Assembly (NCBI RefSeq): GCF_947496515.1
Contig: NZ_CANMDB010000010.1
Location: forward strand, 124,001-188,000
DNA: 64,000 nucleotides
DNA from: an uncultured Roseobacter sp.
GTDB taxonomy: Bacteria; Pseudomonadota; Alphaproteobacteria; Rhodobacterales; Rhodobacteraceae
Reading direction: 5' to 3'
Of this stretch, positions 7,997 through 43,438 are shown in pieces. Within the stretch, counting starts at the first letter, position 1, and the number at the start of each line of letters is the position of its first letter. The notes under the pieces are model-generated. The model was not told the DNA's origin and did no database searches. It saw only the letters and a list, made by a program, of their open reading frames with translations. Both the position numbers and the translations under genes were made by a program.

Positions 7997-8014
7997 TGTC
8001 AACTATAACTTACA
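7997..8014. promoter_or_regulatory. PpsR/CrtJ binding box upstream of bchF
   Basis: The sequence TGTCAACTATAACTTACA is a perfect TGT-N12-ACA palindrome, the recognition pattern of the aerobic photosynthesis repressor PpsR/CrtJ. Read on the minus strand it contains TTGACA, which could act as the -35 of the bchF promoter, with a weak TACCGT about 18 bp further on. Binding here would cover the promoter. The ppsR gene itself lies about 1 kb away. Confidence 0.85.
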
Positions 8015-8052
8015 CTGGCAAAACTGACAGTTTGTGAGGCGAAACCACAGAG

Positions 8053-8093
8053 ATTTCCTAATAGCTGAGCATCAGCAGCGCTATTCAGGAAAT
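8053..8093. repeat. Long imperfect inverted repeat between the two PpsR boxes
   Basis: The left arm ATTTCCTAATAGC (8053-8065) and the right arm GCTATTCAGGAAAT (8080-8093) are complementary over 13 pairs with one extra base in the right arm, around a 14-base loop. It lies in the middle of the bchF-ppaA divergent region. It may be a binding site for a second regulator or an RNA hairpin in a 5' leader. There is no T-run, so a terminator is unlikely. Confidence 0.6.
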
Positions 8094-24729: not shown

Positions 24730-24783
24730 GTCACTGTCCTGATAAGAAAGGCAGCGCCCGACACCTGGGCGCTACCTTTTGGT

Positions 24784-25755: not shown

Positions 25756-25793
25756 AGGTTCCTCCCTAGGGTTAAGTCCGCCGCTCTTGCGGT

Positions 25794-27784: not shown

Positions 27785-27831
27785 CCGGCCCAACTCCTCC
27801 CAAACTCAGGCTTGACGTCTTACGCTAAGCG

Positions 27832-27859
27832 ATGAAAATAGTTTTGCAAATGTTTTCAT
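27832..27859. promoter_or_regulatory. Probable operator palindrome of the LacI-type regulator
   Basis: In the tctA-lacI divergent gap an imperfect 28-bp dyad runs from ATGAAAATAGTT to AAATGTTTTCAT around a TTGC centre. Nine of twelve positions pair between the arms, the style of operators used by LacI-family proteins. It lies 48 bp from tctA and 25 bp from the regulator start, so it could control both. Confidence 0.55.
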
Positions 27860-27883
27860 AAATCCCGCAAACCCGTGTGTTAA

Positions 27884-28915
27884 ATGGCTGATAAAAATCC
27901 GAAAAAAGCGGATATCATCACGGTGGCCAAGGCCGCCCGGGTATCTGCCTCAACGGTGTCGCGATACTTCAACCACCCCGATTTGCTCAAACCGGCGACG
28001 CGCAAAAGGATCGATACTGCGGTCCGGCGCACGGGCTACATCCGTAACCGCGCGGCACAAACCATCCACGGGATCCGGTCAGGCACCATTGGCGTGCTGA
28101 TCCCGACGCTCGATCACGCGATCTTTGCCGAAGTGGTACAAGCATTCTCGGACACGGTCGCGGCACAGGGGTTCACGATCCTGCTGGCTTCGCACGGATA
28201 TGACCTGCAGCGCGAATACGCGATCCTGCGCAAGTTTCTCGAACACCGGGTCGACGGTGTGGTGCTGACCGGGCTGGATCATGACGAGGCCGTGTTTCAA
28301 TTGATCGACAGCCAAAGGATCCCCTGCGTGCTGATGTGGAACTATTCGAAGGGCGCGCGCTACCCTGCGATTGGCGCGGACAACGCGCTGGCAGGCAGGC
28401 TGATCGCCGAGCATGTGCTGTCGCTCGGTCACAAAAAGATCGCATGTATGTTCGCGCCAACCGAAGGAAACGACCGGGCGCTGGCGCGGCGCGACACTGT
28501 CATGAACACACTGCGCGCGTCGGGCATCGAGGTCCCGGAGCATTGGGCGCTGCAGACCCGCTACAGCATTTCTGATTCCAAACAGGACGCGCGGCGGCTT
28601 TTTTCGCGCGAGATACTGCCCACCGCCGTGATCTGCGGGAACGACATTCTGGCGACCGGTGCAATGCTCGGTGCAGTGTCCTGCGGATTGCGTGTGCCGG
28701 ACGATGTGTCGATTGTGGGGATCGGTGACTTCAAAGGATCCTCCGAGTTTGAACCCGCACTGACAACTGTACGGCTTCCGGCGCGCCGGATCGGGCAGGA
28801 AGCAGGCCGGCAACTGGCGGCCACCATAGTGCAGACGGACGAACAGCCCGGTACCAGCCTGCACTGCACACCTGAGTTGATCGTGCGCCGTTCAAGCGCG
28901 CCGCCGCGCCCCTGA
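27884..28915 (+). CDS. LacI-family transcriptional regulator of the TTT/ligase operon
   Basis: A 343-residue LacI/GalR-type regulator. The N-terminal helix-turn-helix reads ITVAKAARVSASTVSRYFNH, and the hinge and periplasmic-binding-protein-like core follow (SGTIGVLIPTLDHAIFAEVV, DGVVLTGLDHDEAV, PTAVICGNDILATGAM, VSIVGIGDFKGSS). It is divergent from tctA with a dyad in between, so it most likely controls uptake and breakdown of the transported carboxylate. The effector is unknown. Confidence 0.88.
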   Translation: MADKNPKKADIITVAKAARVSASTVSRYFNHPDLLKPATRKRIDTAVRRTGYIRNRAAQTIHGIRSGTIGVLIPTLDHAIFAEVVQAFSDTVAAQGFTILLASHGYDLQREYAILRKFLEHRVDGVVLTGLDHDEAVFQLIDSQRIPCVLMWNYSKGARYPAIGADNALAGRLIAEHVLSLGHKKIACMFAPTEGNDRALARRDTVMNTLRASGIEVPEHWALQTRYSISDSKQDARRLFSREILPTAVICGNDILATGAMLGAVSCGLRVPDDVSIVGIGDFKGSSEFEPALTTVRLPARRIGQEAGRQLAATIVQTDEQPGTSLHCTPELIVRRSSAPPRP

Positions 28916-29340
28916 GCAAACGGATTTGACGTCCTTGGTAACGACCCGCAACGGTCTTGCAGACCTTCCACATCGGGGAGACCGCCTCTTCACCCGAAGG
29001 GCTTCTATCGACACATTTTACTTTGTGCATATCGGTGAGAAGACACTGACCATCATTGCCCGCTCGTTGAAGACCTGAGGTCAGCATGGCTCGGTTCAAG
29101 ACAATCACCCGTAAGAAACCCCGTCCCGATGGCACGGGGCCTTACCGCCTGATGGGTATCCGCATCATGGGTCTTTGCATCTCCGGCCAGACATCGGGCT
29201 AGATGCTCCGCGTGAACCGTCACGCTAGTAGATCTGCATCCTCGCGTGACCGAAGTGTTGTGCCGCGATGCGAGGCTTTTGACCCTGAATCATGACGCGG
29301 CCCAACCCGCGCGCGGATCGACAGCAGAGGTAAACCGCAG
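28916..29340. other. Intergenic stretch without supported genes
   Basis: This 425-bp gap lies between the lacI-type gene and the end of the convergent SDR gene. It holds a short basic reading frame of 38 codons (29086-29202, starting MARFKTITRKKPRPDG) that has no SD or recognisable family. I see no tRNA, repeat or clear terminator. Confidence 0.4.
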
Positions 29341-30066
29341 TCAGATATGCTGGCCGCCGTTGATTTCGATCTCGGTGCCGGTCACATAGGACGCCTTGTC
29401 CGAGCAGAGGAAATAGATCACATCGGCGACTTCTTCCGTCTGCCCGATGCGGCGCAGGGGCAGGCCTGCAACGATCTCATCCGTTCCCGGCGACAGGATG
29501 GAGGTTTCAATCTCGCCCGGTGCAATGGCATTCACCCGAACACCGCGCGGTCCGAAATCATGGGCCATCTCGCGTGTCAGCGCTGCCAGCGCGGCCTTTG
29601 AGGTTGCATAGGCCGCACCCGCAAAGGGATGCACCCGGGAGCCTGCAATCGACGTCACATTCACCACCGCCCCGCCTGCCTCGGCCAGTTCTTCAATCAA
29701 ACCGCGCGCCAGCACGATCGGGGCAAAGAAATTGACGTGAAAGACCTTCCCCCATGTCATCAGATCCGTATCCAGCGTGTTCAGCCGCCCGCCCTGCGCG
29801 CTTTTGGGCGAAATGCCCGCATTGCTCACCAACCCATGCAAGGGGCCGTCCAGACGTTCGCGGATCACCTCGACCGCGTTGATCGTTTCGGCCGGATCGG
29901 ACAGATCCAGCTGGATGTGGTTATCCTCGCCCCCGGGCCAGGGGCAGTTCGCGTCGAAGGGTTGACGCGAACAGGTGATCACCCGCCACCCTTCGCTGGA
30001 GAATTTCTTGACGGTCGAATGACCGATACCGCGGCTTGCGCCCGTCAACAGGAGTGTCTTGGACAT
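29341..30066 (-). CDS. Short-chain dehydrogenase/reductase
   Basis: A 241-residue classical SDR. The NAD(P)-binding motif is TGASRGIGHS near the N-terminus, then GLVSNAGIS. The catalytic triad is Ser in VVNVTSIAGS with Tyr and Lys in YATSKAALA. The C-terminus SYVTGTEIEINGGQHI is typical. The ATG at 30066 has GGAG eight bases upstream; the longer frame to 30111 lacks this. It resembles 3-oxoacyl reductase-type SDRs, but the substrate cannot be told. It is just downstream of the ABC-like membrane gene on the same strand, with an 87-bp gap. Confidence 0.85.
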   Translation of the reverse strand: MSKTLLLTGASRGIGHSTVKKFSSEGWRVITCSRQPFDANCPWPGGEDNHIQLDLSDPAETINAVEVIRERLDGPLHGLVSNAGISPKSAQGGRLNTLDTDLMTWGKVFHVNFFAPIVLARGLIEELAEAGGAVVNVTSIAGSRVHPFAGAAYATSKAALAALTREMAHDFGPRGVRVNAIAPGEIETSILSPGTDEIVAGLPLRRIGQTEEVADVIYFLCSDKASYVTGTEIEINGGQHI

Positions 30067-30153
30067 CAAAGGGGCTCCGTGCTGTAAAGGGTTTGTGCCA
30101 GTAGACAGCACCGGTGACGCAACGCAATGCCCGATGCAGAGATTGACCGGAAA

Positions 30154-30963
30154 TCATTGCGGAGGGCGGTGCGGCCCTGCCAGATCCCGTGCGACGGCGG
30201 CAGCACTCTTGCGGTTTTCCTGAAACAGGCTGGCCGCGGTAGCGAGGTTTCGGACCTGCAGCAGGATCAGGACAATGAGAACCAGCGCCGCGAGGGCATC
30301 TCGGTCCGCCACAAGACCGCTGGCCACGAACACGAGCGCGATCATCGTGAGCATAAAGAGCAGACCCAGTGTTGCGTCAATGACGACAAAGCGCAGATAG
30401 CACTGCCTGTAGGTGCCGAGTCGCGCCAACCGGTCGGACAGGGGCGCTGCGTGACCGTCCAGCAGCATGTTGCGCGCGCTGCGCACCCGTCCGATCATCC
30501 GACCACGCCAGCGCACGTAGACAAGCAGCGGTGCCGCCGCCAGCGCGACGCCACCGATCACCAGCACCGAAGAGACCGGATCCAGACGGTAGAGCTGGAT
30601 CAGGTAGATCAGGCTCGCAAAAGTCTGCCCCGGCACAAAGACGTAGAACCCGATCACACCCACTGCGAGGGTCACGTCGTTGTTGGCACGGGAGGCGGGA
30701 ATCCCGGGGATCTCCATCAGGCGCGCGCGCAGGTCGATGTCCACCTTGGCGCTGGCGTAGTTCGACAGGAACCCCGTGGCATAGGCCGCCAGCACACCCG
30801 CGGCGAAAATCAGCGCAAAAGCGGAGGCTACGGTGCCTCCCTCCTGCCCGGTACGCAGCATTGACAGCCCAAAGAGGTTGATCGCGACCGTCACGATTTG
30901 CAGCACCGCACCGGCGATGATTTCAACCCAAACGCTCCGGGTGATTGTCTGTGCGAATGACAC
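30154..30963 (-). CDS. ABC-exporter-like membrane domain protein without ATPase domain
   Basis: A 269-residue membrane protein with about six hydrophobic helices, starting at GTG with a strong GGAGAGG Shine-Dalgarno. The stretch ASAKVDIDLRARLMEIPGIP followed by helices resembles the transmembrane domain of type I ABC exporters, in which a short coupling segment contacts the ATPase. No Walker A, signature or Walker B motif follows, so it would need a separate ATPase or serve another role. It lies downstream of the TOMM operon on the same strand, about 750 bp beyond the GNAT gene. A part in export or immunity is possible but unproven. Confidence 0.55.
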   Translation of the reverse strand: MSFAQTITRSVWVEIIAGAVLQIVTVAINLFGLSMLRTGQEGGTVASAFALIFAAGVLAAYATGFLSNYASAKVDIDLRARLMEIPGIPASRANNDVTLAVGVIGFYVFVPGQTFASLIYLIQLYRLDPVSSVLVIGGVALAAAPLLVYVRWRGRMIGRVRSARNMLLDGHAAPLSDRLARLGTYRQCYLRFVVIDATLGLLFMLTMIALVFVASGLVADRDALAALVLIVLILLQVRNLATAASLFQENRKSAAAVARDLAGPHRPPQ

Positions 30964-31202
30964 CGCAGCGCCTCTCCTGTCCGCTCATTGGGTTAAGAGT
31001 ATCGCGCCAGAACACCGGTGGACGGGCCCTCCGAATGATGAGCGGCAGCCCGCAGACGCGGCGGCGGTTGAGCAGCGGTAATCTGCCGGGCGGAAAGCGC
31101 CTTGTGACGGCGGCAACCGACCGCCAACCGGCACCGCGGTAACGGGCCGGAACACGCCGCTTGCGTCCTCAGAAAGCGCTTTTTTAAGCCTCCGCACGAC
31201 CA

Positions 31203-31421
31203 ATGGGTAGACTGGCGACGCGTCCCCGAAAGCTGCCAAAACGGGCCTTCATGCCAATCGCCTATGCCCTCACCGCCACTCTCGTTCTCGCTCTTTTCGT
31301 GTCGTTTTCAGCGGCCCTGACGGACGCCGTCCGGGATCGCGCCGCGCACACCGCTGCGTGCAACATCCTGCCGTCGCTGTCAGCGCAGACGCGGCTTTCC
31401 TGCGCTGGCGGCGCCAACTGA
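31203..31421 (+). CDS. Hypothetical small membrane-anchored protein
   Basis: A 72-residue open frame with a basic start (RLATRPRKLPKR) and one hydrophobic helix (AYALTATLVLALFVSFSAAL), then a short tail ending near CNILPSLSAQTRLSCAGG. Translation could also start at the ATG at 31251, which leaves 56 residues. There is no good SD. Its stop overlaps the ATG of the next plus-strand frame as TGATG, the main support that it is real. Function unknown. Confidence 0.35.
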   Translation: MGRLATRPRKLPKRAFMPIAYALTATLVLALFVSFSAALTDAVRDRAAHTAACNILPSLSAQTRLSCAGGAN

Positions 31422-31825
31422 TGCGGCTGCATCCCGCGCGGGACCGACCGTGTGTGGACCGCGATGTCCTGCCGTTCATGAGGCGTATCGCAAAAGAGCG
31501 CTATCCCCATCTTGCCTTTGATGAGGTCCGCGCGCGGACCTGGCTGTTCAGCTTTCACACTCCTGATGACCGTGCCGAGTTGCACTGGTTTGCACCCGAC
31601 GTATTGATTGCACTCCGGAAGGAGCGGTTTTCAGTCACTTGCACCACGATCTGGCGGGCCAGCGTCTTTGCGACAGAGACCACCGAGGTGACAGGGATCC
31701 TGTCCGGGATCATGAAGGATCGTGACGCGCCGATATGCCTGCTTTGCGAGCGGGAGACCGGGGGTGTTTTCCTTGGCCATCAGTATCTTCTGAGCGCATC
31801 AGATACGTGCGCTGAACCGGCCTGA
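31421..31825 (+). CDS. Hypothetical protein opposing the end of the TOMM operon
   Basis: A 134-residue frame starting at the TGATG junction with the previous gene. It contains a protein-like central part (RTWLFSFHTPDDRAELHWF, TCTTIWRASVFATETTEVTG), and its third-codon composition is GC-rich but less biased than its neighbours. The last 116 bp overlap, on the opposite strand, the C-terminal tail of the GNAT gene, so at least one of the two tails may be unconserved. I recognise no family. Confidence 0.42.
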   Translation: MRLHPARDRPCVDRDVLPFMRRIAKERYPHLAFDEVRARTWLFSFHTPDDRAELHWFAPDVLIALRKERFSVTCTTIWRASVFATETTEVTGILSGIMKDRDAPICLLCERETGGVFLGHQYLLSASDTCAEPA

Positions 31826-32249
31826 ACCCAAAGGCGCGCAGCAGACGGTCCGAGGACTGCAGCCGCACACCGGAGGACACACCGAACTCCACCGCATCTA
31901 CCCGGTGGCTGTGCGCCCAGGTCAGGAAGCTGCGGATCAATCGGGGGCCGGTCAGGCTGCCCGCGCGCTGATGTGTCACGAAGGTAAAGACGTTGATGGC
32001 GCGTCGACCCAGAACCCAGTCAAGATCGTCTATCTCTGCGACCATCACACCGCAGACGGCAGTATCGCGACCCCGCGCGATCACACCCAGCCGGGGCTTG
32101 TCCTGATCGTATATCACCCGCCGAGCCATGGCCTCGACGGCAGCGGGATCCAGCCCAAAGGCCTGCCATTCGGATTCCTCCAGCATCTCCCGTGCCGCTT
32201 GTGTAACATCGGCAATATCAGCGGGCTTGAGCGGGCAAAGCGACGTCAC
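31710..32249 (-). CDS. GNAT-family acetyltransferase of the TOMM operon
   Basis: A 179-residue protein with a GNAT-like fold: an N-terminal helix pair (DVTQAAREMLEESEWQAFGL), strand region LGVIARGRDTAVCGVMVAEI, the probable acetyl-CoA segment FVTHQRAGSLTGPRLIRSFL, and a final strand GFRPVQRTYLMR. The start is GTG, overlapping the previous stop as GTGA, so it is coupled to the upstream gene; the longer ATG frame to 32501 lies inside that gene. In RiPP clusters GNAT enzymes cap the peptide N-terminus or a side chain. It is the last gene of the tightly packed operon. Confidence 0.65.
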   Translation of the reverse strand: MTSLCPLKPADIADVTQAAREMLEESEWQAFGLDPAAVEAMARRVIYDQDKPRLGVIARGRDTAVCGVMVAEIDDLDWVLGRRAINVFTFVTHQRAGSLTGPRLIRSFLTWAHSHRVDAVEFGVSSGVRLQSSDRLLRAFGFRPVQRTYLMRSEDTDGQGKHPRSPARKAGISARHDPS

Positions 32250-33133
32250 GGCGTACACCAGAGCGTGCCGTCCGCCTCGATTTCGCGCGGTTTCACCGGG
32301 CATCGGGCATTGGCCTGCCAGCTTAACCGATGGATGATCCCATCGGTCGGCATCCCAGCCAACAGCGCTGGCACGTCTCCGGCCCTGGGGCGACCAACGA
32401 TCCCGACACTGCCGTCCTGGCTCAGCACCATCTGCCGCGCACCGCGACACAAGGAGAGACCCCGCGTGCCATCGGATAAATGGGCGGGCGAGACCTGCCA
32501 CCCGTCAAGCTCCAGCTGCACCGCCAGTGCGAATGTCTCGCGCGGCTCAGACAGCGCCTGGATCCAGACCGCCTCCCCGACCTCTTCCCATCGCGGCCAT
32601 ACTGTCCGGGGCCGCGGGGGCAGCGGGTAGACCGGGACTGCGGTGTATCTGTCCCCCTGCCGCGTGGCGCGGAATGTCATGCTCTCGCCCGCGAGCCGGA
32701 GCGCGAAATAGGCGTGATCCGCCGTGATCGGCGGCACGGCAGCTGTCGCCGGTGCCAGATGGACCTCGAGCGTCTGCGCGCCCTGCCGCGGTGCTGCCGT
32801 GAGCATGGCGGTGATCAGCGGATCCTCCGCTCCAATATTGGCCGCGCTGCCAAACTCTTGCGTCCAGAGGGCAGCGCCCAGCCAGACAGCCCATTCGAAG
32901 TTCACCGGACCGTCGCGGGCACAGGATGCAACAGGGCGCGACAGTTCATAGAGCGCGTGGATCTGCGCCCGCGTCTCCGCTCGGGACCGCCTGAACCGGT
33001 GCAACAGATCCTTGAGCGCGGGGGGCACGGGCTGCTGCAACCGATGTTCGATTTGCGCGATCCGGTCCTGTCGCAGCGCGGTCTCATAGTCAGCGGCATC
33101 AAAGACCGGGTGGGTTTGGGTCGCGCCTAGCAT
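32246..33133 (-). CDS. Uncharacterised protein of the TOMM operon
   Basis: A 295-residue soluble protein that I cannot assign to a family. It starts MLGATQTHPVFDAADYETAL with the ATG overlapping the GS-like gene by 7 bp. Visible stretches include a helical N-terminus (RIAQIEHRLQQPVPPALKDL, LLHRFRRSRAETRAQIHALY), a middle part with FEWAVWLGAALWTQEFGSAA, and a beta-rich C-terminal half. There is no signal peptide or membrane helix. Its coupling to both neighbours suggests a role in maturing the peptide, such as a protease, scaffold or further tailoring enzyme. Confidence 0.6.
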   Translation of the reverse strand: MLGATQTHPVFDAADYETALRQDRIAQIEHRLQQPVPPALKDLLHRFRRSRAETRAQIHALYELSRPVASCARDGPVNFEWAVWLGAALWTQEFGSAANIGAEDPLITAMLTAAPRQGAQTLEVHLAPATAAVPPITADHAYFALRLAGESMTFRATRQGDRYTAVPVYPLPPRPRTVWPRWEEVGEAVWIQALSEPRETFALAVQLELDGWQVSPAHLSDGTRGLSLCRGARQMVLSQDGSVGIVGRPRAGDVPALLAGMPTDGIIHRLSWQANARCPVKPREIEADGTLWCTP

Positions 33134-34389
33134 CCCAGATGAAGCTGCATTTCCGCAACCGACGCGGACATTGCCAGCGCATCCAGCTCCCGGCACCGAA
33201 AGGCACGGTAGGCGGGGGCAAAACGCGGGTGCGCACCCGCCGCCTCCAGCACAGGGCCCAAGGCGTCCATCGCCTGATCAAGCAAGGGCCGCATGGCCAG
33301 CACCGGCGCATAGTCAGGCACAGGCATCGGCTCGGGCGCGCGCAGAAAGAGGCTGGCCAGGATCACGGTCAGCATCGCGTAAGGGTCGCCTGACGCATCG
33401 GGAAAACGCAGCTCGATCCGCCCCACATCTCCGCCGCCAGCGTGGATCAGACGGATCAACGCCCGTCGGTCCGCGTATCCCGCAACTGGACGACCGCCAA
33501 GCCCCTGCCGCATCATCCACAATCGTCTCAGCCCGGAGGGTGACGGGGTGCAGAACGCCGACAGGCTGGGGATGGCGGCCGCGAGCGTCCGCAGGATCCG
33601 CCGCCCCTCATCCGAGCGTCTGCCGCCGGTGTAGAGCATATCCTGCCCCGCACGACCGGCGGAGATATGGACATGCAGCCCGCTGCCGGGGCACCAGGAC
33701 AAGGGCAGCGGCATGAAGCTGGCGGTCAGCCCGTCGTGATCCGCCATCTCGTGTGTCGTGAGTTTCAGGACCGATAGCGCATCACAGGCCGCCACCGGCG
33801 GTTGCGGCGCCAGCGCGATTTCCTGCTGGCCGGGACCCGCTTCGTGATCGTGATGTGTCACGCCGACACCGCGCGCCGCCAATTGCTGCACGATCCGGCG
33901 ACGCAGCTTTGCGTGCCGGTCAAAAGGCGGGGGCCGAAACTGCATCCGCGGATAGCCGACCCGGTAGGGTTGCGGATCTGCGGCGTCACGCAGAACCATA
34001 TCGACGCTCTCCAGCCGGACCCGGCTGTGGCTGAGACCTGTCTCCACCTCCGCCTTCTCAAAGATGTAGAATTCTGCCTCCAGACCGATGCGCAGCTCGA
34101 TCCCCTGATCGGCCAGCAAACCGGTCACCCGACCGAGCATCGCCCGGCTGTCGAACCACGCAGGAGAGCCGTGGCGGGCGTGGGTGATGGTGCCGAACGC
34201 CAGCTCTGCCGTGGCCCCGAAGCTTGCGGCCGCGTCGGGGTGAAAGACAAGATCGCTGTGCTGAGGGCGGCACCATTCAGGCAGAACGGAGCCTGAGAAA
34301 CTGCCGGAGCTTTTCTGCGGTATGGTGCAGATCCGGCCCGCCATGTCGGTAAACACGAACGCAGGCTCCGGCGCATCATCCCCCATCAT
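33127..34389 (-). CDS. Glutamine-synthetase-like ligase of the TOMM operon
   Basis: A 420-residue protein of the glutamine synthetase superfamily. The metal and substrate motifs are present: GLEAEFYIFEKAE near residue 102 (ExE pair), HHDHEAGPGQQEIALAP near 179 (second pair of glutamates), GSGLHVHIS near 235 (metal histidine) and GRIELRFPDASGDPY later (phosphate-binding arginine region). It should therefore be able to activate a carboxylate with ATP and join it to an amine or ammonia. It resembles non-assimilatory GS relatives more than GlnA. It overlaps the gene before it by 14 bp. The substrate is probably the modified peptide, but this is inference. Confidence 0.75.
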   Translation of the reverse strand: MMGDDAPEPAFVFTDMAGRICTIPQKSSGSFSGSVLPEWCRPQHSDLVFHPDAAASFGATAELAFGTITHARHGSPAWFDSRAMLGRVTGLLADQGIELRIGLEAEFYIFEKAEVETGLSHSRVRLESVDMVLRDAADPQPYRVGYPRMQFRPPPFDRHAKLRRRIVQQLAARGVGVTHHDHEAGPGQQEIALAPQPPVAACDALSVLKLTTHEMADHDGLTASFMPLPLSWCPGSGLHVHISAGRAGQDMLYTGGRRSDEGRRILRTLAAAIPSLSAFCTPSPSGLRRLWMMRQGLGGRPVAGYADRRALIRLIHAGGGDVGRIELRFPDASGDPYAMLTVILASLFLRAPEPMPVPDYAPVLAMRPLLDQAMDALGPVLEAAGAHPRFAPAYRAFRCRELDALAMSASVAEMQLHLGC

Positions 34390-34813
34390 CGCCGAGCGGT
34401 TCGGGGCGCAGCACAACGCGGAACGGGCGTTCGGCATCCTGGGTATAGAACAGGCCGAAAAGCGTATTCTGCGCATCCGGTTCCAGGACGATCATGTTGT
34501 GCTCTCCCATCCAGATGATGAGCTCTCCGCCCACTTCGCGGCAGGGAGTGATCGTCTCGCCCGCTTGCTCCACCAGCACATTTTCACCCCATGACACATA
34601 CGCCATGCAGCCGCCTGCATCGTCAGGTTGCAGAGCAAAGACCACGTCGAGCGTTCCTTCCCATTTACCCTGCCACAGCCCCGCAAAGTCGGCGAACTGC
34701 GGTGCGACCTCCTGCGCGACCGTCTCTGGCCGCGGCGCAGGTGCAAGCGTGTCCGCCCCATCACTTGCCCAGACACCCGTTGCCGACAAACACAAGATGA
34801 GCAGCCATCTCAT
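34376..34813 (-). CDS. Small exported protein of the TOMM operon
   Basis: A 145-residue protein with a Sec-type signal (MRWLLILCLSATGVWASDGA; a lipobox is not obvious, so probably periplasmic). The mature part has alternating beta-type stretches (FAGLWQGKWEGTLDVVFAL, GCMAYVSWGENVLV, GELIIWMGEHNMIVLEP), reminiscent of small lipocalin-like beta-barrels. It sits between the PCMT gene (ATGA overlap) and the GS-like gene. It could be a self-protection protein binding the product in the periplasm. No family is recognised with confidence. Confidence 0.6.
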   Translation of the reverse strand: MRWLLILCLSATGVWASDGADTLAPAPRPETVAQEVAPQFADFAGLWQGKWEGTLDVVFALQPDDAGGCMAYVSWGENVLVEQAGETITPCREVGGELIIWMGEHNMIVLEPDAQNTLFGLFYTQDAERPFRVVLRPEPLGDDGG

Positions 34814-35949
34814 GAGGTGCGGACCGTCGCAGTAAGGGACAGCGCCGTGCCGTCCGCAGTAGGCTCGCCCGTCCGGATGGAGAGATCACCCGGGGCGGGG
34901 CGCAAAACCGCCGTCCAGCGCGCGATCAGGCGGTCCAGCTCGGCGGAGGCCGCCTCGGCGCTGCCCTGCACCAGCACACCGTCGCGGTCGGTGATCGTGA
35001 CAGCGCCGCCCGGATAGGTCGTGCCATAAGCCCAGCCGGGCGTGGGCTTTCCTGTCGCCGGGTCGGGCCTGCGGGTGAAAAAACCGGTGTCTTCCGTCGC
35101 AGCCACAAAGGACCGCAGACCAAAGCCCGGATCCGGCAGACGGGCAATGCGCGCGCTCAACGTCTCGCTACGGGGGCCGGGGTGCGACAGTCTGGTGGCG
35201 TCACGCCAGTCCGGCAGCAGGGCCGCCACGCTGAACACGCCCGACGCAGGGACAAAAAGCGTCGGCAACTGGGACATCACCTGTCCCGAGCGGTTCAGCA
35301 TCAGCGACGCGTTCACCGCATGCGCCATGGTCACCGGCAACAACAGTACGCCCTCGGGGCTCAGTGCGTCCAGCATGACGCGCGGCACCCGGTCAAACGC
35401 GGCTGTCGCCACGATCCTGTCCTGCGGTGGCAGACCCGGCAGCACGTCGTTGAAGTCACCTTCGTGCAACACCAGGTTCCGGGGGCCGATCCGGGCCTGC
35501 CGGGCAGCCGCGGCGCGTGCAACCTCCGGCAAAATCTCGATGCCATGCACGATGCCCTCGGTGCCCACACGTCGCGCCATCATGGCAGCCATCCAGCCGC
35601 AACCCGATCCGATCTCCGTGACATGGTGCCCGGGCTGCAAATCCAGGAGAGAGATGAATTTCAATACGATCGACGGTGCCGATATGGTCGACACCGGCAG
35701 CCCCACATTATCGTAGGCCAGCACGAGCGGCGCGTCGCTCCATACCTCTTTGGACTGCTGCGGACTGGCGTCAAAGCTCTTGAAACGCGGCGCGCCCATC
35801 ACGGCGTAGCGATCCGCGTATCGTTCGCGCGGCACCTCCCGGAGCAGCGACAGCAGTTCCTCATCCTCGGCCAGTTCGGGGAATTGTCGCAGGATCTGAC
35901 GGACCAGCCCGTCCATCAGCGCGGTGCTGTCCTCTGCCGCGAGCGTCAT
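34810..35949 (-). CDS. PCMT-like (isoaspartyl-type) O-methyltransferase of the TOMM operon
   Basis: A 379-residue SAM-dependent methyltransferase related to protein-L-isoaspartate O-methyltransferase. The substrate-side motif STISAPSIVLKFI lies near residue 87 and the SAM motif I VTEIGSGCGWMAAMMARRVG near 110-129, with further conserved ILPEVARAAA. About 150 residues follow the methyltransferase domain, as in RiPP-linked PCMT homologues that methylate a precursor aspartate and drive aspartimide formation. The gene is fused by overlap to sagB (TGATG) and to the exported-protein gene. The expected target is an Asp of the precursor (51, 56 or 63). Confidence 0.78.
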   Translation of the reverse strand: MTLAAEDSTALMDGLVRQILRQFPELAEDEELLSLLREVPRERYADRYAVMGAPRFKSFDASPQQSKEVWSDAPLVLAYDNVGLPVSTISAPSIVLKFISLLDLQPGHHVTEIGSGCGWMAAMMARRVGTEGIVHGIEILPEVARAAAARQARIGPRNLVLHEGDFNDVLPGLPPQDRIVATAAFDRVPRVMLDALSPEGVLLLPVTMAHAVNASLMLNRSGQVMSQLPTLFVPASGVFSVAALLPDWRDATRLSHPGPRSETLSARIARLPDPGFGLRSFVAATEDTGFFTRRPDPATGKPTPGWAYGTTYPGGAVTITDRDGVLVQGSAEAASAELDRLIARWTAVLRPAPGDLSIRTGEPTADGTALSLTATVRTS

Positions 35950-36794
35950 CAGACGGGCGTCTTTTCATCAGTGGCGCCCAGCAGGATGCAGCCGATCACC
36001 GTCTCGTCCACGCCGTTGACGCCCAGGATCGCGTTGATCTCATCGTCGATATAGCCGCCCCAACAGAGGCTCGCCAATCCTTCGGCTGTGGCGGCATCCA
36101 GCAGGCATTGTGCCGCGCAGCCCGCCTCCGTCAGGGCAAACCTGTAGCCGCGCGCGCCATATTTCGCGGTGCTGCGCTGGTGGATCACCGTTTGCAACAC
36201 GACAGCCGCCGGTGTGCCCAGCCGGTCCTGATCTGTCGCCAGCACGCCAAAAAGCCGCTGGGGGGAGAGCCCGGTGGCAACCTGTGCCAGCGCACCACGA
36301 TGCGGATCAACGTACCAGGCGTCAAACGCCGTCCCGGTCTGGCCCGGCAGCAGCGCATAATGCTCCACCGGGAACAGACCACCCGCCGACGGATACCGCC
36401 CGAGCGCATAGACCACATCCTCCAGCGCGGCGGCCTGTCTGCGCCGGTCCCGGCGCAGTGCGGTGGCAAGGGTACGCTCCACTGCACCCAGATGCTGCGC
36501 CGAATAGGCCGGGAAGCGGCGCGCGGACTCGCGCAGCCCCGCCTCACCCGCCGCTGGCGGCAACGGGCGCGATGGCGCATCAAGATAAACCTTGTATCCA
36601 TGCGCCCCGGCCCTCACCGTGGCCTCGTTGCGCAGATGCGGGATGATCCGGTACCTGTGCGCGCGGATGTTGCTCTGCCGCAGCTTTGTGTTCTCCGCAA
36701 ACAACTCCACCAGATCGTGACCGTCGCGCTCCATACCCGCGATGCGGATCGTGGGGGTCACACTCGACAGGGGCAGACGCTCGGTGAGGGACAT
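35949..36794 (-). CDS. SagB-type FMN-dependent azoline dehydrogenase
   Basis: A 281-residue nitroreductase-fold protein of the SagB/ThcOx type, which oxidises azolines made by a YcaO complex to aromatic azoles. Visible are RRFPAYSAQHLGAVE, the typical ALGRYPSAGGLFPVEHYALL, VVLQTVIHQRSTAKYGARGY and ALTEAGCAAQCLLDAATAEG. The C-terminus has the conserved GYIDDEINAILGV. It follows the YcaO gene by 17 bp. Its presence implies that the product carries thiazole or oxazole rings. Confidence 0.88.
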   Translation of the reverse strand: MSLTERLPLSSVTPTIRIAGMERDGHDLVELFAENTKLRQSNIRAHRYRIIPHLRNEATVRAGAHGYKVYLDAPSRPLPPAAGEAGLRESARRFPAYSAQHLGAVERTLATALRRDRRRQAAALEDVVYALGRYPSAGGLFPVEHYALLPGQTGTAFDAWYVDPHRGALAQVATGLSPQRLFGVLATDQDRLGTPAAVVLQTVIHQRSTAKYGARGYRFALTEAGCAAQCLLDAATAEGLASLCWGGYIDDEINAILGVNGVDETVIGCILLGATDEKTPV

Positions 36795-36811
36795 TGCGGA
36801 ACCTTCTTCGG

Positions 36812-38146
36812 TCAGGGAAAGGGATGGGGGTCACGGTTGAGCGTTACCTCGGTCACGCCCAGATGATGCGCCGCGACCTCCAGACGCCGGAGATCGTCGG
36901 GAATGGCCAGACCGCTGTAGAGCGGCTGAAGCCCGGGCACGACGACCTTGCCCACCGCCAGACCAAGCTGTGCGGCATCAAGGCCGGTCATATCGAACCA
37001 CACCGGGATATGCCCCGCATCGCCAACCCGATCGAGCAATCGCTGCAATGTCTCCGTTGCGCTGCTACCCGGCGAGAAATCGGTGCTGTAGTCGGTCACG
37101 GGGCCTTCGGTCAGCCACCAGAAGGCAGGCTTGCGCGCGGGGTCCAGGTAGTATTCCGCGTGCTCCAGAAAATTCGAGATGTCCTCGAAGGCAACGGGTT
37201 TCGTCCCCAGAAGCCTTTGTTGCGCCAGATAGGTCCAGCAGTGGATCGCCTCGCACACGGCCTTGGTGACGGCCTGATCCAGGGTGGGTTTGCACGAGGC
37301 GCCGATGCAAAAGACCGATCCATCTCTGTTGGATAGCACGACGAGGATCGTGGGAATATCCACGTCCACGCGGATGTCGTAGACCCGCACCACATGCGAC
37401 CGGCTCTCCATCAACTCACGCACCTGCCGGGGGAGCGAAAGCGTGCCCAGCTGAGCGGCGGGAATGGCGTTCGGCGCGCGGCGCAACATCCAGTGGCAGG
37501 CAAAGGCGTCACGCTCGATCACCTCGCACAACCCGCCAAGGCGCGCGGCATCGATGTCCTGCCCGGCGGCGATGCCGTTGGACGTATTATGGGACAGCAG
37601 TTCGTGGTCGTGTTCCATGTGGTAGTTGAAGACAACCGTTTGCGCCGCCAGCCAGACCGGCTGCCCATCGAGCAGCGAGAGCCCGCGCACCCACCCGCGC
37701 GGCAGGTCGCGGTCATACTCGTGAAAGAACACATCCGCGTCCGCCAGCATCTCCGGCGAGAACCGGATCAGCCGCTGCATGATGCTATCATCAATACCCA
37801 GCTCATCACAGGTGCCGTGCACGATGGCGTCTTCGGGAAAGATCGCGGCGCTATAGCGCTCGACCGACTCGCCCACCGTCGCCCAGAGCGCATCTGTGGC
37901 GTTGCACCCGAGCGCACCACCGCGAATGGCTTTTTCGCTGGCCCGGCTGCGTCCGCGGCGCAGGCGGCGCACATCGGCGAGGGAAGCGCTGTATTGATGA
38001 AAACGCGGCAGATCATGGGGAACCGGCGTCTCCACCATCGTCTTGATCAGGCCAAAGCGGGGATGTGTGGCGCGCGCAATCGCATCGCGCAACGCGCCCG
38101 GCAGAGCAAAACCGTCAATCCGCTTGATATCCGCCAGCTCAGTCAT
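36812..38146 (-). CDS. YcaO-domain cyclodehydratase (TOMM D protein)
   Basis: A 444-residue YcaO protein that uses ATP to activate backbone amides so that Cys, Ser or Thr side chains can form azoline rings. The nucleotide and Mg motifs are ATVGESVERYSA (Glu93, Glu96) and LCEVIERDAFACHWML (Glu208, Glu211), with SNGIAAGQDIDAARL between. The C-terminus ends in PHPFP, the PxPxP tail typical of azoline-forming YcaO proteins. It overlaps the E1-like partner gene by 8 bp. The two are separate proteins here, not fused. Confidence 0.92.
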   Translation of the reverse strand: MTELADIKRIDGFALPGALRDAIARATHPRFGLIKTMVETPVPHDLPRFHQYSASLADVRRLRRGRSRASEKAIRGGALGCNATDALWATVGESVERYSAAIFPEDAIVHGTCDELGIDDSIMQRLIRFSPEMLADADVFFHEYDRDLPRGWVRGLSLLDGQPVWLAAQTVVFNYHMEHDHELLSHNTSNGIAAGQDIDAARLGGLCEVIERDAFACHWMLRRAPNAIPAAQLGTLSLPRQVRELMESRSHVVRVYDIRVDVDIPTILVVLSNRDGSVFCIGASCKPTLDQAVTKAVCEAIHCWTYLAQQRLLGTKPVAFEDISNFLEHAEYYLDPARKPAFWWLTEGPVTDYSTDFSPGSSATETLQRLLDRVGDAGHIPVWFDMTGLDAAQLGLAVGKVVVPGLQPLYSGLAIPDDLRRLEVAAHHLGVTEVTLNRDPHPFP

Positions 38147-39119
38147 TGACGTCCCGCTCGTGTGTCTCCCACACCAGCCGACCCGTTCGCACGGGCGATG
38201 CCGGGGCGAAATCCGGCCGGGTCCCGCACACAGCGCACCGCGGCGCCTTGAGCACGATACCGGCCTCGAAGGTACCCGAGAGGAACTCCTGCTCCCGCAC
38301 CGTACCGAGTGGCGCGGTATGCTCCATCCCCGACATATGCGCGATCATCAGGGCGACGGCGTTTGTGGCCGCCGCCGTCGCCACCAAGGCACTCGGCCGC
38401 GCCACGGGTGGGGTGAGGGTGTCGTCCGGCTGCGCGGTCAACCAGTCTTCGGTGGCGCGACCCGCTTTGCCGTGCGCCGCGCGCCGTTCAAAGTGGCAGG
38501 CGTAGCAGGCTGCATCCTGCCCCCAGCACAGCGGCCCCGCGACCGCACGGGTCATATCCACATAGGCAAAGAGGTAAGGAAGGCCTGTCTTGGACAGTCG
38601 CTCATTTTGTCGGGAGAAGCCGTCGTGATCCCAGTGGTCCGCGCAGACGATTGCGGCATCCGCCCCCTCGGCGCCCGGTGCGGGATCGGCCAGTGCCAGC
38701 CCCGCTTCGCGGCAGAGCGCTGCCACACGGCTCGCCACCTGACCGCTCCCGATAACCGACAGGACCGGTTGGGCGAGCGCCTGGGTGTCGACCCTCTCGG
38801 GATCGTCCCCCAGAACCTGCTGAAACGCGCGCCGGGCGAGGTCGAGAGATTGAACGAACATGTCTTCACTCCAACTCAGAGGTGTCTCGATCAGCGCGCC
38901 GCGGTTCTTCAGCGCCGCGAAACCCGGTGTACCCGGGCCCAGGACCCCCGATCGTAGGGCCGCAGCAAGCGCCTCGTTATCCTGAACCGCAAAGCTGTCG
39001 GTCGCACTGCGGAACATGATGCGACGACCGTGTTCGGGGCCCCGCTCCGGGTCCTCTTCAAACGCGGAGGGCGCGCGCGCAGTGAGGCGACGCGCATCCA
39101 GAGCGGGGTGCAAGTGCAT
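38139..39119 (-). CDS. E1-like/TOMM cyclodehydratase partner (C protein)
   Basis: A 326-residue protein of the bacteriocin-cyclodehydratase (SagC/E1-like) type, which binds the leader peptide and presents it to the YcaO enzyme. The N-terminal 110 residues look like the winged-helix leader-binding part, followed by a Rossmann-like SVIGSGQVASRVAALC. Two CxxC pairs, Cys205/Cys208 (ACYACHFERR) and Cys295/Cys298 (PRCAVCG), form the expected structural zinc site. The ATG is 10 bp after the precursor stop, with a GAGG SD overlapping that stop. Confidence 0.85.
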   Translation of the reverse strand: MHLHPALDARRLTARAPSAFEEDPERGPEHGRRIMFRSATDSFAVQDNEALAAALRSGVLGPGTPGFAALKNRGALIETPLSWSEDMFVQSLDLARRAFQQVLGDDPERVDTQALAQPVLSVIGSGQVASRVAALCREAGLALADPAPGAEGADAAIVCADHWDHDGFSRQNERLSKTGLPYLFAYVDMTRAVAGPLCWGQDAACYACHFERRAAHGKAGRATEDWLTAQPDDTLTPPVARPSALVATAAATNAVALMIAHMSGMEHTAPLGTVREQEFLSGTFEAGIVLKAPRCAVCGTRPDFAPASPVRTGRLVWETHERDVND

Positions 39120-39129
39120 GGATCAGACC

Positions 39130-39342
39130 TCAGGCGCGGACGCTGGAGGCCATGTCACAGAAGACGGTGCAGAAGTCCGGCGATTGCGTGTCGCCACCGC
39201 CGCCACCGCCTCCGCCACCACCGAATGTGGCACCCTGATCCTGATAGGTCTTGGGGTTGGCAAGCGCAGGTGCAGGGTCAAAGGTATCGTTGTAGCTGTC
39301 GAGGATCGCGATGGTGTCTTGGTCAGTCGTCGTGTGGTTCAT
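39130..39342 (-). CDS. TOMM precursor peptide with deca-glycine linker
   Basis: A 70-residue peptide starting MNHTTTDQDTIAILDSYNDT, with CCGGAGAATATACA before the ATG giving a good SD. The first 40 residues are acidic and polar, as expected of a leader. Gly41-Gly50 form an unbroken run of ten glycines written with mixed GGC, GGT and GGA codons. The last 20 residues (DTQSPDFCTVFCDMASSVRA) hold the cyclisable Cys58 and Cys62 plus Thr52, Ser54, Thr59, Ser66 and Ser67. The design resembles the microcin B17 precursor, in which a Gly run precedes the ring-forming part. It is the first gene of the operon. The longer frame to 39498 has no SD. Confidence 0.85.
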   Translation of the reverse strand: MNHTTTDQDTIAILDSYNDTFDPAPALANPKTYQDQGATFGGGGGGGGGGDTQSPDFCTVFCDMASSVRA

Positions 39343-39690
39343 TGTATATTCTCCGGTTTGGGGGATCAGACAGAAGTGTCCGCGATGATCCCGATCGGTG
39401 ATTAAACGCTGATATGGAAAGCCGCCGGGTTCGGCACTTTCGGCGATGACACTAACAAACGACCAATGACTACCGACGCGGGAATCGGATCTGGCCATGA
39501 CCTTGGCAACTTCACGCTAAAGCACCCGCGTCGGCGCGGCAGCTTTCGGCTGTCGGCGAAACTTTACCTGCGCGGAACACTTGGTCGGGTTGCTTACCGC
39601 CGATTCGCAGCGGCGGGGAGCGTACAGCGTGCAGGGCAGTCGATCCTTCTGCGGAGACCGTCGTTGCGCGCAAAGTCTCAGAGCGACAGA
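39343..39690. promoter_or_regulatory. Upstream region of the TOMM operon
   Basis: This 348-bp gap separates the precursor start from the end of the 2-hydroxyacid dehydrogenase gene. It must contain the operon promoter and the end of the sugar operon. It is less GC-rich near 39390-39480. No clear -35/-10 pair, operator dyad or terminator could be fixed. The small plus-strand frames in it look incidental. Confidence 0.45.
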
Positions 39691-40713
39691 CTAATTCCTG
39701 GAAACCGGCTTTGAGCGCATGCGAGCCACGGTTTCACGCTCCGCGCGCTTGCAGCGCATCGGTGGCAGACCCTGATCCAGAAGCCGCAGATCCTCCAGCA
39801 CCATGTCGCCCATCTGCTTGAACGCCACATCGAGCGCGCCCGCCCGGTGCGCGGACCGCAGGAAACCCGACAACTGCCGGACCTCGTGATCGCGCGGCAA
39901 TGGCTCCTCCGGAAAGACATCACTTGCGGCAAGGATATGTCCCGACCGCACGGCGGCCATCAGATCATCGAAGTCGACCACATCCGCCCGGCTCAGCAGG
40001 ATCAACCGCGCGCCCTGGCGCATCCTGGCAAAGGCGTCTGCGTTCAGAAACCCCTTGTTCTCCTGCGTGACACTGGCAACCACAAAGACCGTCTCACTCT
40101 CGCACAGGATCTCGTCCAGTGACGCGGGCCGGATCCCCGCCTCGCGCAGCAGCGAGGGCGGCAACCAGGGGTCAAAGGCAGAGATCTCCGCGCGAAAGCC
40201 CTGCAGCAACCGGGCAAGCGCACGTCCGAGATCCCCGAACCCGATGATCCCGATCCGCGAGTGCGACAGCAGCCGGGCGCTGTGATTGCTGTCCCCGCCC
40301 CAGATCTCGCGCCCCTGCCGAAACGCCAGATCCGCGTCGATCACATCGCGCGCCAGACACAGGGCCATCGCCAGACCGATCTCGGCCACCGGCTCGGCAA
40401 AGACAGCCCCCGTGGTGACCACATGGATGCCCCTTTCGAACAGATGATCATAGGGCATGTTGTTGATCAGATTGCTCTCCACGTTGAAGATACAGCGCAG
40501 ATTTTCCATCTGCACCAGCGTCTCGCGTGACAAGGCAGGCTGACCGATGATGTAGCTAATCCGTCTCAGGGTCTGCGGATCGAGGGTTTCGATCTCCTCC
40601 GGCGCGACCTCCAGCAGATCGTAGTTCGCATGCAAGGCGGCCCGGGCCTCCGCCGAAAAAATCAGATCGAGCGACCGGGGATCGGGTGCGGAAAGGACAA
40701 GCGGTTTGGTCAT
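39691..40713 (-). CDS. D-isomer-specific 2-hydroxyacid dehydrogenase
   Basis: A 340-residue enzyme of the phosphoglycerate-dehydrogenase-like family. The NAD-binding motif is IGIIGFGDLGRALARLL near residue 160. The catalytic region includes GARLILLSRADVVDFDDL and the late RSAHRAGALD, in which the His takes the usual catalytic place. The N-terminal substrate domain precedes it. The ATG at 40713 overlaps the kinase stop by 4 bp. It ends the sugar operon and probably oxidises or reduces an intermediate acid of that pathway. Confidence 0.82.
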   Translation of the reverse strand: MTKPLVLSAPDPRSLDLIFSAEARAALHANYDLLEVAPEEIETLDPQTLRRISYIIGQPALSRETLVQMENLRCIFNVESNLINNMPYDHLFERGIHVVTTGAVFAEPVAEIGLAMALCLARDVIDADLAFRQGREIWGGDSNHSARLLSHSRIGIIGFGDLGRALARLLQGFRAEISAFDPWLPPSLLREAGIRPASLDEILCESETVFVVASVTQENKGFLNADAFARMRQGARLILLSRADVVDFDDLMAAVRSGHILAASDVFPEEPLPRDHEVRQLSGFLRSAHRAGALDVAFKQMGDMVLEDLRLLDQGLPPMRCKRAERETVARMRSKPVSRN

Positions 40714-41582
40714 GAGGCCCTGTGTGTGCGTGAGATATGCGCGGCGGCGGCGGTGCTTGCCTGCTCCAGCGCGGGCTGCAAGGGGAGGTCTTCGGCCAAA
40801 GCCCGGCACAGTGTCCCGATAAAGGCATCGCCCGCACCATGGGTGCTGACCACGTCAACGGGATGGGCCGGCAAGGCGCCTGATCCTTTGCCGCGTTCGG
40901 CCCAGGCGACACCATCGCCACCGGCGGTGACGACAACAGTTGGGATATGCTCGGAGAGCGAGATTGCCGCCGCCTCGGCGCTGGCAAGATCGCTGACAGC
41001 AGCCGTGCCCATATCCTCCGCCTCGATCGCGTTCACGACCAGAACGTCGAGCGCATCCCGCAACGCCGGCGACAGAGCGCGGTGGGGAGCGGCGTTGAGG
41101 CAGATCCGCAGGCCATGGGCTTGCGCCGCCCGGGCCGCTGCAAAGTTCACCGCCTCGGGGACTTCGTTTTGCAGGATCAACACCTTCGCATCCTGCCAAA
41201 GCGCCGGGTCGGCGAATTGCGCGGTGTCGATATGAAGATTGGCCCCCGATACGATCACCGCACCGTAGTCTCCCTCCGCATCGACAATGGCCACGCTCAT
41301 CCCCGTGCCGCACCCCGCAATTCGCTGCACATCATCGGTGGCAATCCCTGCATCGCGCAACGTCGACAGCATCAGCTGAGCAAAATCATCCTCGCCCACC
41401 GCCCCGACAAACCGCGTCTGGGCACCGGCCTGCGCCGCAGCCACCGCCTGATTGCCGCCCTTGCCGCCAAATTTCGGATACCACGCCTGCCCGGTGACCG
41501 TCTCACCCTTGCGGGGGCGGTCGGGCGCCTCGACCATCAGATCATAGTGCAGGCTGCCCACGACAACGACGGCCCCGCTCAT
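40710..41582 (-). CDS. Ribokinase-like (PfkB family) sugar kinase
   Basis: A 290-residue PfkB-family kinase. The N-terminal signature is WYPKFGGKGGNQAVAAAQAG, and the ATP/anion-hole motif with the catalytic base is STHGAGDAFIGTLCRALAED near the C-terminus. Between them is VVNAIEAEDMG. It is close to RbsK in layout but the substrate may be another sugar. It is coupled by ATGA overlaps to the RpiR gene before it and the dehydrogenase after it. The ATG at 41582 gives the conserved start MSGAVVVVGSLHYD. Confidence 0.85.
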   Translation of the reverse strand: MSGAVVVVGSLHYDLMVEAPDRPRKGETVTGQAWYPKFGGKGGNQAVAAAQAGAQTRFVGAVGEDDFAQLMLSTLRDAGIATDDVQRIAGCGTGMSVAIVDAEGDYGAVIVSGANLHIDTAQFADPALWQDAKVLILQNEVPEAVNFAAARAAQAHGLRICLNAAPHRALSPALRDALDVLVVNAIEAEDMGTAAVSDLASAEAAAISLSEHIPTVVVTAGGDGVAWAERGKGSGALPAHPVDVVSTHGAGDAFIGTLCRALAEDLPLQPALEQASTAAAAHISRTHRAS

Positions 41583-42439
41583 CCCTCGCGTTTCGCGGCG
41601 ACAGCGCCCATGGTCTTGCCTAGGTTGACTTCGGCGGTTTTGAAATCCCGCTGCGCGATGGCGACATAGAGCGCATCGAGGATGTTCAGCTGCGCGATAC
41701 GGGCCGCGGCGTTCTCTCCCAGCAAGGGCGAGCCGCGCGAGGTCGAGCACAGCACCACATCCGCTGCCTCGGCCACGGTGCTTTCGGCGTAGTTCGTGAC
41801 GGCGATGGTCCGGGCACCCTGCTTGCGGGCAAGCCGCATCGGCTCCAGCACCGCGGTGGTCGCACCGGAATGGCTGAAGACCATGACCGCATCGTCAGGT
41901 TTCAGCACAGACGCCGACATCAGCATCATATGCGCGTCATCGTAAACGGAGGCCCGCATGCCAATGCGCAGGAACTTGTGGGCCACATCGCGGGCGATCT
42001 GGGCCGAGCCGCCGATGCCGTAGAAATCCCGGTTGTGCGCGCGGTACATGATGTCCGCCGCCCGGTCAAAAGCCTCAATGTCCAGAATGGCGATGGTCTC
42101 CTCCAGCGCCTGCATAGAGGTGCGGAAAACCTTCTGGATGATGCTGGCGGAGCTGTCGTCGGGCGAGATCTCGCTGTAAAGGCTGGCCACATCGGATTGC
42201 TTGTATTCCACCAGCCCCCCGCGTAGCGCCCGAAATCCGCTGAACCCCAGCTTCTTGGCGATCTTGACGATCATCGCCTCCGAGACGGAGGCATCGGTCG
42301 CCACCTGCTTGATGGAGGTCGCCTCGGTCAGGTCCTCGCGGGAGGTGATGGTATCCACCACGCGCAGTTCCAGCGGGGTCAGCTGCGGCAAGCGCATGCG
42401 GATCTGGGCGCCAATGGCGCGCGCATCCTGTCCGCTCAT
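41579..42439 (-). CDS. RpiR-family transcriptional regulator
   Basis: A 286-residue regulator with an N-terminal helix-turn-helix (SIKQVATDASVSEAMIVKIA) and a C-terminal SIS sugar-phosphate-binding domain (FYGIGGSAQIARDVAHKFLR, DDAVMVFSHSGATTAVLEPM). Such proteins sense phosphorylated sugars. It lies within the operon, 3 bp after the permease gene and overlapping the kinase gene, so it is autoregulated with its likely targets. Confidence 0.9.
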   Translation of the reverse strand: MSGQDARAIGAQIRMRLPQLTPLELRVVDTITSREDLTEATSIKQVATDASVSEAMIVKIAKKLGFSGFRALRGGLVEYKQSDVASLYSEISPDDSSASIIQKVFRTSMQALEETIAILDIEAFDRAADIMYRAHNRDFYGIGGSAQIARDVAHKFLRIGMRASVYDDAHMMLMSASVLKPDDAVMVFSHSGATTAVLEPMRLARKQGARTIAVTNYAESTVAEAADVVLCSTSRGSPLLGENAAARIAQLNILDALYVAIAQRDFKTAEVNLGKTMGAVAAKREG

Positions 42440-42442
42440 GGA

Positions 42443-43408: not shown

Positions 43409-43438
43409 GAATGTCGCCTCTTTCGTCTTTGGGCTGCG

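Follow-up and report, generated by a model that had tools for sequence, protein, structure and literature searches.

An operon whose azole-forming enzymes are accompanied by both a carboxyl-methylating and a carboxylate-amine-ligating enzyme raises the question of whether these enzymes serve a single pathway and what that pathway would make. Such an operon lies in the 64,000-nucleotide stretch of DNA analyzed here (the window), from an uncultured Roseobacter sp. (contig NZ_CANMDB010000010.1, positions 124,001 to 188,000). The cluster very probably makes a small ring-modified (azole) peptide decorated by uncommon extra enzymes, and represents an uncommon version of an established type of peptide factory, not a new type. 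As a whole, it is probably best explained as a linear azol(in)e-containing peptide (LAP; or thiazole/oxazole-modified microcin, TOMM) module endowed with a second, aspartate-directed tailoring layer. An aspartyl-methyltransferase layer in a LAP cluster has precedent in print; none was found for the glutamine synthetase (GS)-fold ligase that accompanies it here.

All nine minus-strand open reading frames reported in the initial annotation between 31710 and 39342, hereafter genes A to I, were found in place and on that strand [Table 1]. From A/B to H/I, their junctions measure 10, -8, 17, -1, -4, -11, -7 and -13 bp (negative values being overlaps), such that seven of the eight overlap or lie within 10 bp, as had been claimed, the sole larger gap (17 bp) separating C from D. 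The nine genes recur with their order kept in Actibacterium ureilyticum (locus L003; 46-86% identity), followed by two further genes, J and K. Gene content and order, and their conservation in one other genome, are thus established. Comparison of the two loci by blastn yielded pieces at 30203-30957, 31299-32299 and 33028-39401 (66-73% identity) and a further 40-bp piece at 32874-32913 (85%). No piece with E <= 1e-5 was found beyond 30203-39401 when positions 24001-44000 of the window were compared to 21.3 kb of L003, and the short scattered tblastx pieces outside these limits were taken for chance. Since DNA similarity to A. ureilyticum is confined to this block, the unit was taken to comprise 11 genes (A-K); the nine genes are contiguous, as annotated, but J and K belong with them. 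All 11 gene pairs displayed dN/dS ratios of 0.07 to 0.36 (NG86), which are rough values given that dS is near or above 1 (0.9-1.7). Judging from these ratios and from the recurrence of the nine genes in A. ureilyticum, the arrangement of the operon is more than chance.

Precursor A consists of a leader (residues ~1-40), a run of ten glycines (Gly10, 41-50) and a putative core, DTQSPDFCTVFCDMASSVRA (51-70). Its final 30 residues differ from those of the A. ureilyticum counterpart by two amino acid changes and 13 synonymous codon changes, compared to 11 and 14, respectively, in the 35 aligned residues that precede them, and this nearly frozen C-terminal part points to a translated gene whose product would be the C-terminal part. 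A conserved precursor with a leader and a Cys/Ser/Thr core is thus present, as judged from one other genome. The models supporting the E1-like protein B and the YcaO protein C were above cut-off [Table 1], the A. ureilyticum copy of B scoring 50.7 bits against TIGR03882. C ends in PHPFP, consistent with the C-terminal PxPxP rule for SagD-type YcaO proteins, and is 86% identical to the A. ureilyticum YcaO. The putative dehydrogenase D, assigned through PF00881, aligned with the McbC structure 6gos (E 2.5e-11), including its Lys-Tyr pair. The E1-like and YcaO genes of the annotated trio were thereby borne out, with D as a probable SagB-type third member that scores below the cut-off of the SagB model. 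The same trio and a leader/core precursor are found in microcin B17 (McbB/McbC/McbD) and streptolysin-type LAPs, and a poly-Gly stretch likewise precedes the core of microcin B17. Unlike the latter, with its many Cys residues, the present core harbors two, and PCMT, GS-like and GNAT genes are added here to the set known from microcin B17 and streptolysin.

Table 1 Coordinates in the window, strand and supporting evidence for the shared module and its 11 genes.
Feature	Description	Position	Strand	Evidence
Module	Shared DNA-similarity module	30203..39401		blastn vs A. ureilyticum, gaps inside
A	Precursor peptide, 70 aa	39130..39342	-	80% identical to 65-aa A. ureilyticum counterpart
B	E1-like / leader-binding partner of YcaO	38139..39119	-	TIGR03882 40.9 bits, cut-off 36.9
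C	YcaO cyclodehydratase	36812..38146	-	PF02624 3e-56; TIGR03604 235.2 bits, cut-off 219.25
D	SagB/McbC-type flavin azoline dehydrogenase	35949..36794	-	PF00881 42.4 bits, cut-off 23.5
E	PIMT/PAMT-like aspartyl O-methyltransferase + extra C-terminal domain	34810..35949	-	PF01135 8e-29
F	Putative exported 145-aa protein	34376..34813	-	Homologue beside PCMT in Rhizobium pTiL51_94, 30% over 128 aa
G	Glutamine-synthetase-fold amidoligase	33127..34386	-	PF00120 1e-45; alignments
H	295-aa protein	32246..33133	-	46% identity in A. ureilyticum
I	GNAT-fold acetyltransferase	31710..32258	-	Conserved to about residue 155; fold comparison
J	Protein convergent with I	31421..31825	+	53% over 129 aa in L003, position and orientation kept
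K	Membrane protein, six hydrophobic segments; candidate export/immunity protein	30154..30963	-	64% identity in L003, position kept; hydropathy

The proposed second layer starts with E, in which the catalytic domain of a protein-L-isoaspartate O-methyltransferase (PIMT) is followed by ~140 residues past the core. This C-terminal domain aligns with FxLD methyltransferases. Of the WXXXGXP region it retains Trp and Pro: across the five aligned sequences, those of the window, L003 and Rhizobium together with two fxlM proteins, Trp345 and Pro351 are invariant; the motif is exact in the Rhizobium PCMT homologue, and the two FxLD proteins deviate from it as well. In the portion of PMC13001092 available, the motif is described in most protein aspartyl methyltransferases (PAMTs) associated with ribosomally synthesized and post-translationally modified peptides (RiPPs), and the modified Asp precedes Thr in the two characterized lassimiditides and Ser in seven predicted ones, a second group having its Asp elsewhere. 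Asp51-Thr52 of precursor A, conserved in A. ureilyticum, lies between Gly10 and the Cys residues and would fit as the modified site, as in the two characterized lassimiditides; Asp56-Phe and Asp63-Met/Leu would fit less well. The L003 copy of E matched positions 82-353 of the 363 of the graspetide methyltransferase model TIGR04188 (86.6 bits, cut-off 380). A PIMT core with a C-terminal domain and a conserved core Asp are features shared with other RiPP-associated PIMTs/PAMTs (lassimiditides, graspimiditides, imiditides, OlvS), from which the present system differs by its linear azole context and by a Leu in place of the motif's Gly. Because E resembles RiPP-associated aspartyl methyltransferases, it more likely leads to an aspartimide, possibly at Asp51-Thr52, than to an ordinary ester, and the plain carboxyl-methylating PCMT of the initial annotation is better read as an enzyme of this kind, yielding aspartimide or isoaspartate (isoAsp). 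For 9408 methyltransferases of this kind, the accessible part of the pamtide paper (PMC10787088) counts two LAP clusters, in which the core is rich in C/S/T/G and carries an Asp; these two may or may not include the present ones.

G was aligned to solved bacterial glutamine synthetases and to the genome's own best GlnA (L051), in Salmonella numbering. All 12 metal, ATP and acid positions examined (E129, E131, E212, E220, G265, H269, R321, R339, R344, R355, E357 and R359) are established to be retained, in the window and L003 copies alike. In contrast, all four residues examined in or close to the ammonia site (D50, S53, N264 and E327) are altered. Asp50, Ser53 and Glu327 are replaced by Ser, Val and Leu in the window and by Ser, Val and Pro in L003; the loop around position 327 is gapped, and Glu is absent between R321 and R339 in both copies. 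These alterations, together with a GlnA model score of 142.3 bits under a cut-off of 429.15, indicate that G is no true GlnA. D50 and E327 serve ammonia in glutamine synthetase; their replacement makes an amine other than ammonia likelier for G, the acid substrate of which may be either a peptide carboxylate or glutamate. The annotation of G as a carboxylate-amine ligase thus stands as far as its catalytic positions are concerned, whereas its action on the peptide we infer. Four other GS-fold paralogues of the genome (L052-L055; the counts omit L056, present in the same alignment), which we take to be gamma-glutamylamide ligases of the PuuA/GMAS kind, likewise keep the 12 positions and have S53, N264 and E327 changed or gapped in every case and D50 in three. 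Unlike such ligases, G is encoded in a RiPP operon, and it is remote in sequence (24-26% identity among the listed plasmid matches covering at least 94% of the query).

That the GS-fold amidoligase is a RiPP tailoring enzyme, which together with the aspartyl methyltransferase would make a substituted amide from a carboxylate of the azole-peptide core or add gamma-glutamate, is a tentative proposal that we consider possible rather than probable. A 2009 paper, by its title, reportedly deals with GS-like and other amidoligases in peptide modification. In the accessible parts of PMC13001092 and PMC8939145, the wording of a GS-like amidoligase occurs only in the cited title of that paper, and the literature searched, including the TOMM survey PMC4603692 in the portion available, showed no azole-peptide cluster with an enzyme of the GS fold. 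Against full novelty of the ligase stand the ATP-grasp ligases that the same portion of PMC8939145 places beside YcaO and beside SagB-like genes. The branch 6 loci described there resemble the present one in that a ligase forming amides or esters stands beside YcaO/TfuA or SagB-like genes, but the ligases are of the ATP-grasp type and the YcaO association is of the TfuA type. Thiostrepton biosynthesis, as presented in the available text of PMC4525488, involves de-esterification and then amidation of the formerly methylated carboxylate (TsrB/TsrC), the asparagine-synthetase-like TsrC differing from the GS fold seen here. The initial annotation had regarded the combination of enzymes as unknown from any characterized product; two LAP clusters carrying such a methyltransferase, YcaO or SagB-like genes beside ATP-grasp ligases, and thiostrepton amidation are all in print, whereas a GS-fold ligase in this setting did not appear in the literature searched.

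The remaining proteins are less readily placed, with no Pfam or NCBIfam family above cut-off for A, F, H, I, J or K. Although missed by these family models, I is established as a GNAT by its fold, in agreement with the acetyltransferase annotated at the operon end; its profile gave weak matches to solved structures, two of them chains of BH1408, and Foldseek ranked the BH1408 entry first. Goadsporin is likewise an azole RiPP with a GNAT, GodH, which acetylates its N-terminus according to the accessible part of PMC5303826. Export of F is predicted from its N-terminal letters alone, with no signal-peptide program. A relationship of F to DUF1579 was considered and set aside, the three F proteins having no DUF1579 match, with no direct comparison made. 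The predicted fold of H was unusable (pLDDT 34.7). The convergent genes I and J share 116 bp in the window (31710-31825) but 28 bp in L003. The profile of K returned nothing meaningful among solved structures, and its six segments give the impression of an ABC exporter; K may play a role like that of McbE, which forms with McbF the ABC exporter/immunity pair of microcin B17. Family scans detected no protease and, in contrast to microcin B17 and streptolysin, no ABC ATPase among the 11 proteins. The earlier statement that the operon lacks a protease and a complete transporter is thus upheld as regards these families, but has to allow for a membrane gene, K, within the set. Elsewhere, the genome carries two genes of the TldD/PmbA family, which matures microcin B17.

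From these assignments, the following pathway may be proposed. B would hold the leader of precursor A while YcaO, acting across the Gly10 spacer, would cyclize Cys58 and Cys62 of the core (both after Phe), and possibly Thr59 and Ser, to azolines, which D, judging from its family membership, would oxidize to azoles. E would methylate a single Asp, for which Asp51, within Gly-Asp51-Thr52, is the best candidate, leading to aspartimide or isoAsp. G, in the least certain of these steps, would activate a carboxylate as an acyl phosphate and couple this to an amine that is not ammonia; an amine would thereby be attached to a carboxylate of the core, or else glutamate to an amine of the peptide. The leader would be removed by a protease encoded elsewhere, for which the two TldD/PmbA-family genes are candidates; I may acetylate the freed N-terminus or protect the producer, and F and K may act in the envelope, in export or in immunity.

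Relatives of the module proved rare. Of 31 pattern matches in a YcaO scan of species genomes, two encode relatives: that of A. ureilyticum (86%) and one in a Competibacteraceae metagenome-assembled genome (34%; L004). In the latter, a Gly/Cys-rich 77-aa open reading frame (7852-8085) precedes an E1-like gene, itself followed by a YcaO gene within which the contig stops. YcaO matches at E <= 1e-8 were found in 15 of 394 family genomes, a sample with almost one genome per genus in which G219 is the A. ureilyticum L003 record itself; identity was high in the window's own genome and A. ureilyticum only, and 25-31% in the other 13. Within the window's genus, one genome out of 19 had YcaO at E <= 1e-20, as did the single genome (1/1) of the A. 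ureilyticum record's genus. A second YcaO-like stretch occurs elsewhere in the window's genome (L002 1501-1818, G000:C6:242330-242647; 31% over query residues 187-289, E 8.7e-6). In larger samples, evidently without the A. ureilyticum record, PCMT alignments at E <= 1e-20 were obtained in three phylum genomes out of 388, two of the three aligning through no more than the methyltransferase domain, and matches to B in 2 of 388 (E <= 1e-5). F was found in a single class genome out of 289 (E <= 1e-4) and H in 4 of 390 order genomes (E <= 1e-3), three of these matches being weak and partial. Among 72,556 plasmid records, no relative of H, I or K was detected at E <= 0.01. Upstream of the operon lies a gene for a 2-hydroxyacid dehydrogenase (39691-40809), to which the remaining 18 genomes of the genus gave no match at E <= 1e-60, and the operon's surroundings may thus be accessory too. 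With this neighbor found in 1 of 19 genomes (its own) and the downstream neighbor in 5 of 19 (E <= 1e-50), no empty site could be defined in the genus.

The plasmid records did yield one distant locus, on pTiL51_94 of Rhizobium sp. L51/94 (L036, NZ_CP072145.1 92000-114000), where YcaO, SagB, PCMT and an F homologue follow one another in the same order. There, YcaO is split by an IS3 element (28% in the matching piece), SagB was identified by PF00881, and the homologues of E and F show 24% identity over 84% of the query (E 4e-15) and 30% identity (E 3e-9), respectively; this locus apart, F had no second match at E <= 0.01 among the plasmid records. The locus continues with proteins of 82 and 539 aa devoid of a Pfam family. 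When profiles of A to K were scanned against 24 stretches, all eleven were recovered in L003 and L049, which are the same genome and by construction positive since the profiles include L003. L036 returned C, D, E and F, of which only C is independent, the D, E and F profiles holding L036 proteins; other YcaO loci returned B, C and D only, plus a weak E match in L040. E alone was found in L034 and L035 (chosen for E), and nothing in L050. On this evidence, PCMT and F accompany azole machinery in two lineages, and G to K in the close pair only. Among the more distant LAP clusters, L031 (1482-10890) encodes a Cys-rich 65-aa candidate precursor, an E1-like protein, a YcaO ending in PHPFP, SagB and a second YcaO, along with ABC-like genes and a ThiF-like protein named from the letters, and two Rhizobium clusters (L028 and L029) each harbor three YcaO genes with a DUF1579 gene upstream.

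Several observations weigh against an azole-peptide module with an aspartate-directed layer. The complete A-K set was found in one other genome only, such that conservation of the gene set rests on a single pair. That A. ureilyticum keeps the precursor before the E1-like gene, followed by PCMT, GS-like and GNAT genes, agrees with the single pathway originally proposed, but distant YcaO neighborhoods are without the latter three, the Rhizobium PCMT excepted, and the gene set is thus peculiar to a small subgroup. None of G to K has a match in the 22 kb of pTiL51_94, and the association of ligase and PAMT is thus not a general one. D scores 69.6 bits against the SagB model TIGR03605, under its cut-off of 78.4; E falls far below the cut-offs of the RiPP methyltransferase models TIGR04364 and TIGR04188, its C-terminal part alone matches no NCBIfam model, and the Gly of WXXXGXP is the Leu mentioned above. 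No function is assigned to F, H, J or K, and a promoter and terminator scan showed nothing above shuffles and no sigma-70-like promoter.

Among other explanations, the product might be a non-lethal azole peptide, a signal or metal ligand and no antibiotic, with the exported F as its binding partner. The 11 proteins include no recognized immunity or ABC-transporter family (family scans), F looks exported, and its sole plasmid match adjoins a PCMT gene; nothing specific opposes this idea, and the sporadic spread of the module, with two highly identical matches in 394 family genomes, suits accessory weapons at least equally. We regard it as conceivable, if less than probable. Somewhat less likely still is that the azole peptide is the work of A to D together with E and F, and that G, H and I form a travelling resistance or amine-metabolism unit which leaves the peptide untouched. 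The Rhizobium relative without G to K would suit such a division, as would the mostly identical ammonia-site alterations in the four GS-fold paralogues and the divergence of H, in which dN/dS is higher (0.36) and identity lower than in any other gene of the block. Yet the frames from E to I overlap or are nearly contiguous in both genomes (-4, -11, -7 and -13 bp in the window; -4, -14, 4 and 5 bp in L003), and the block has the same limits in both. Finally, that E is a plain carboxyl methylase or repair enzyme forming no aspartimide is unlikely, for although its best solved-structure matches, aligned within residues 35-227 only, are named protein-L-isoaspartate O-methyltransferase and its model scores and Leu would agree with this, the extra C-terminal domain aligns with RiPP-associated proteins and keeps the Trp and Pro, and the gene sits within the operon beside F, a neighbor common to a second YcaO-SagB-PCMT locus.

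An azole-peptide module carrying an aspartate-directed layer thus remains the preferred reading. The module is sharply delimited, its 11 genes spanning 9.2 kb, which puts reconstitution within practical reach. Self-contained and with a nearly frozen core, it offers a test case for aspartimide chemistry outside ring-shaped RiPPs, and would serve a second question, namely whether GS-fold ligases modify ribosomal peptides.

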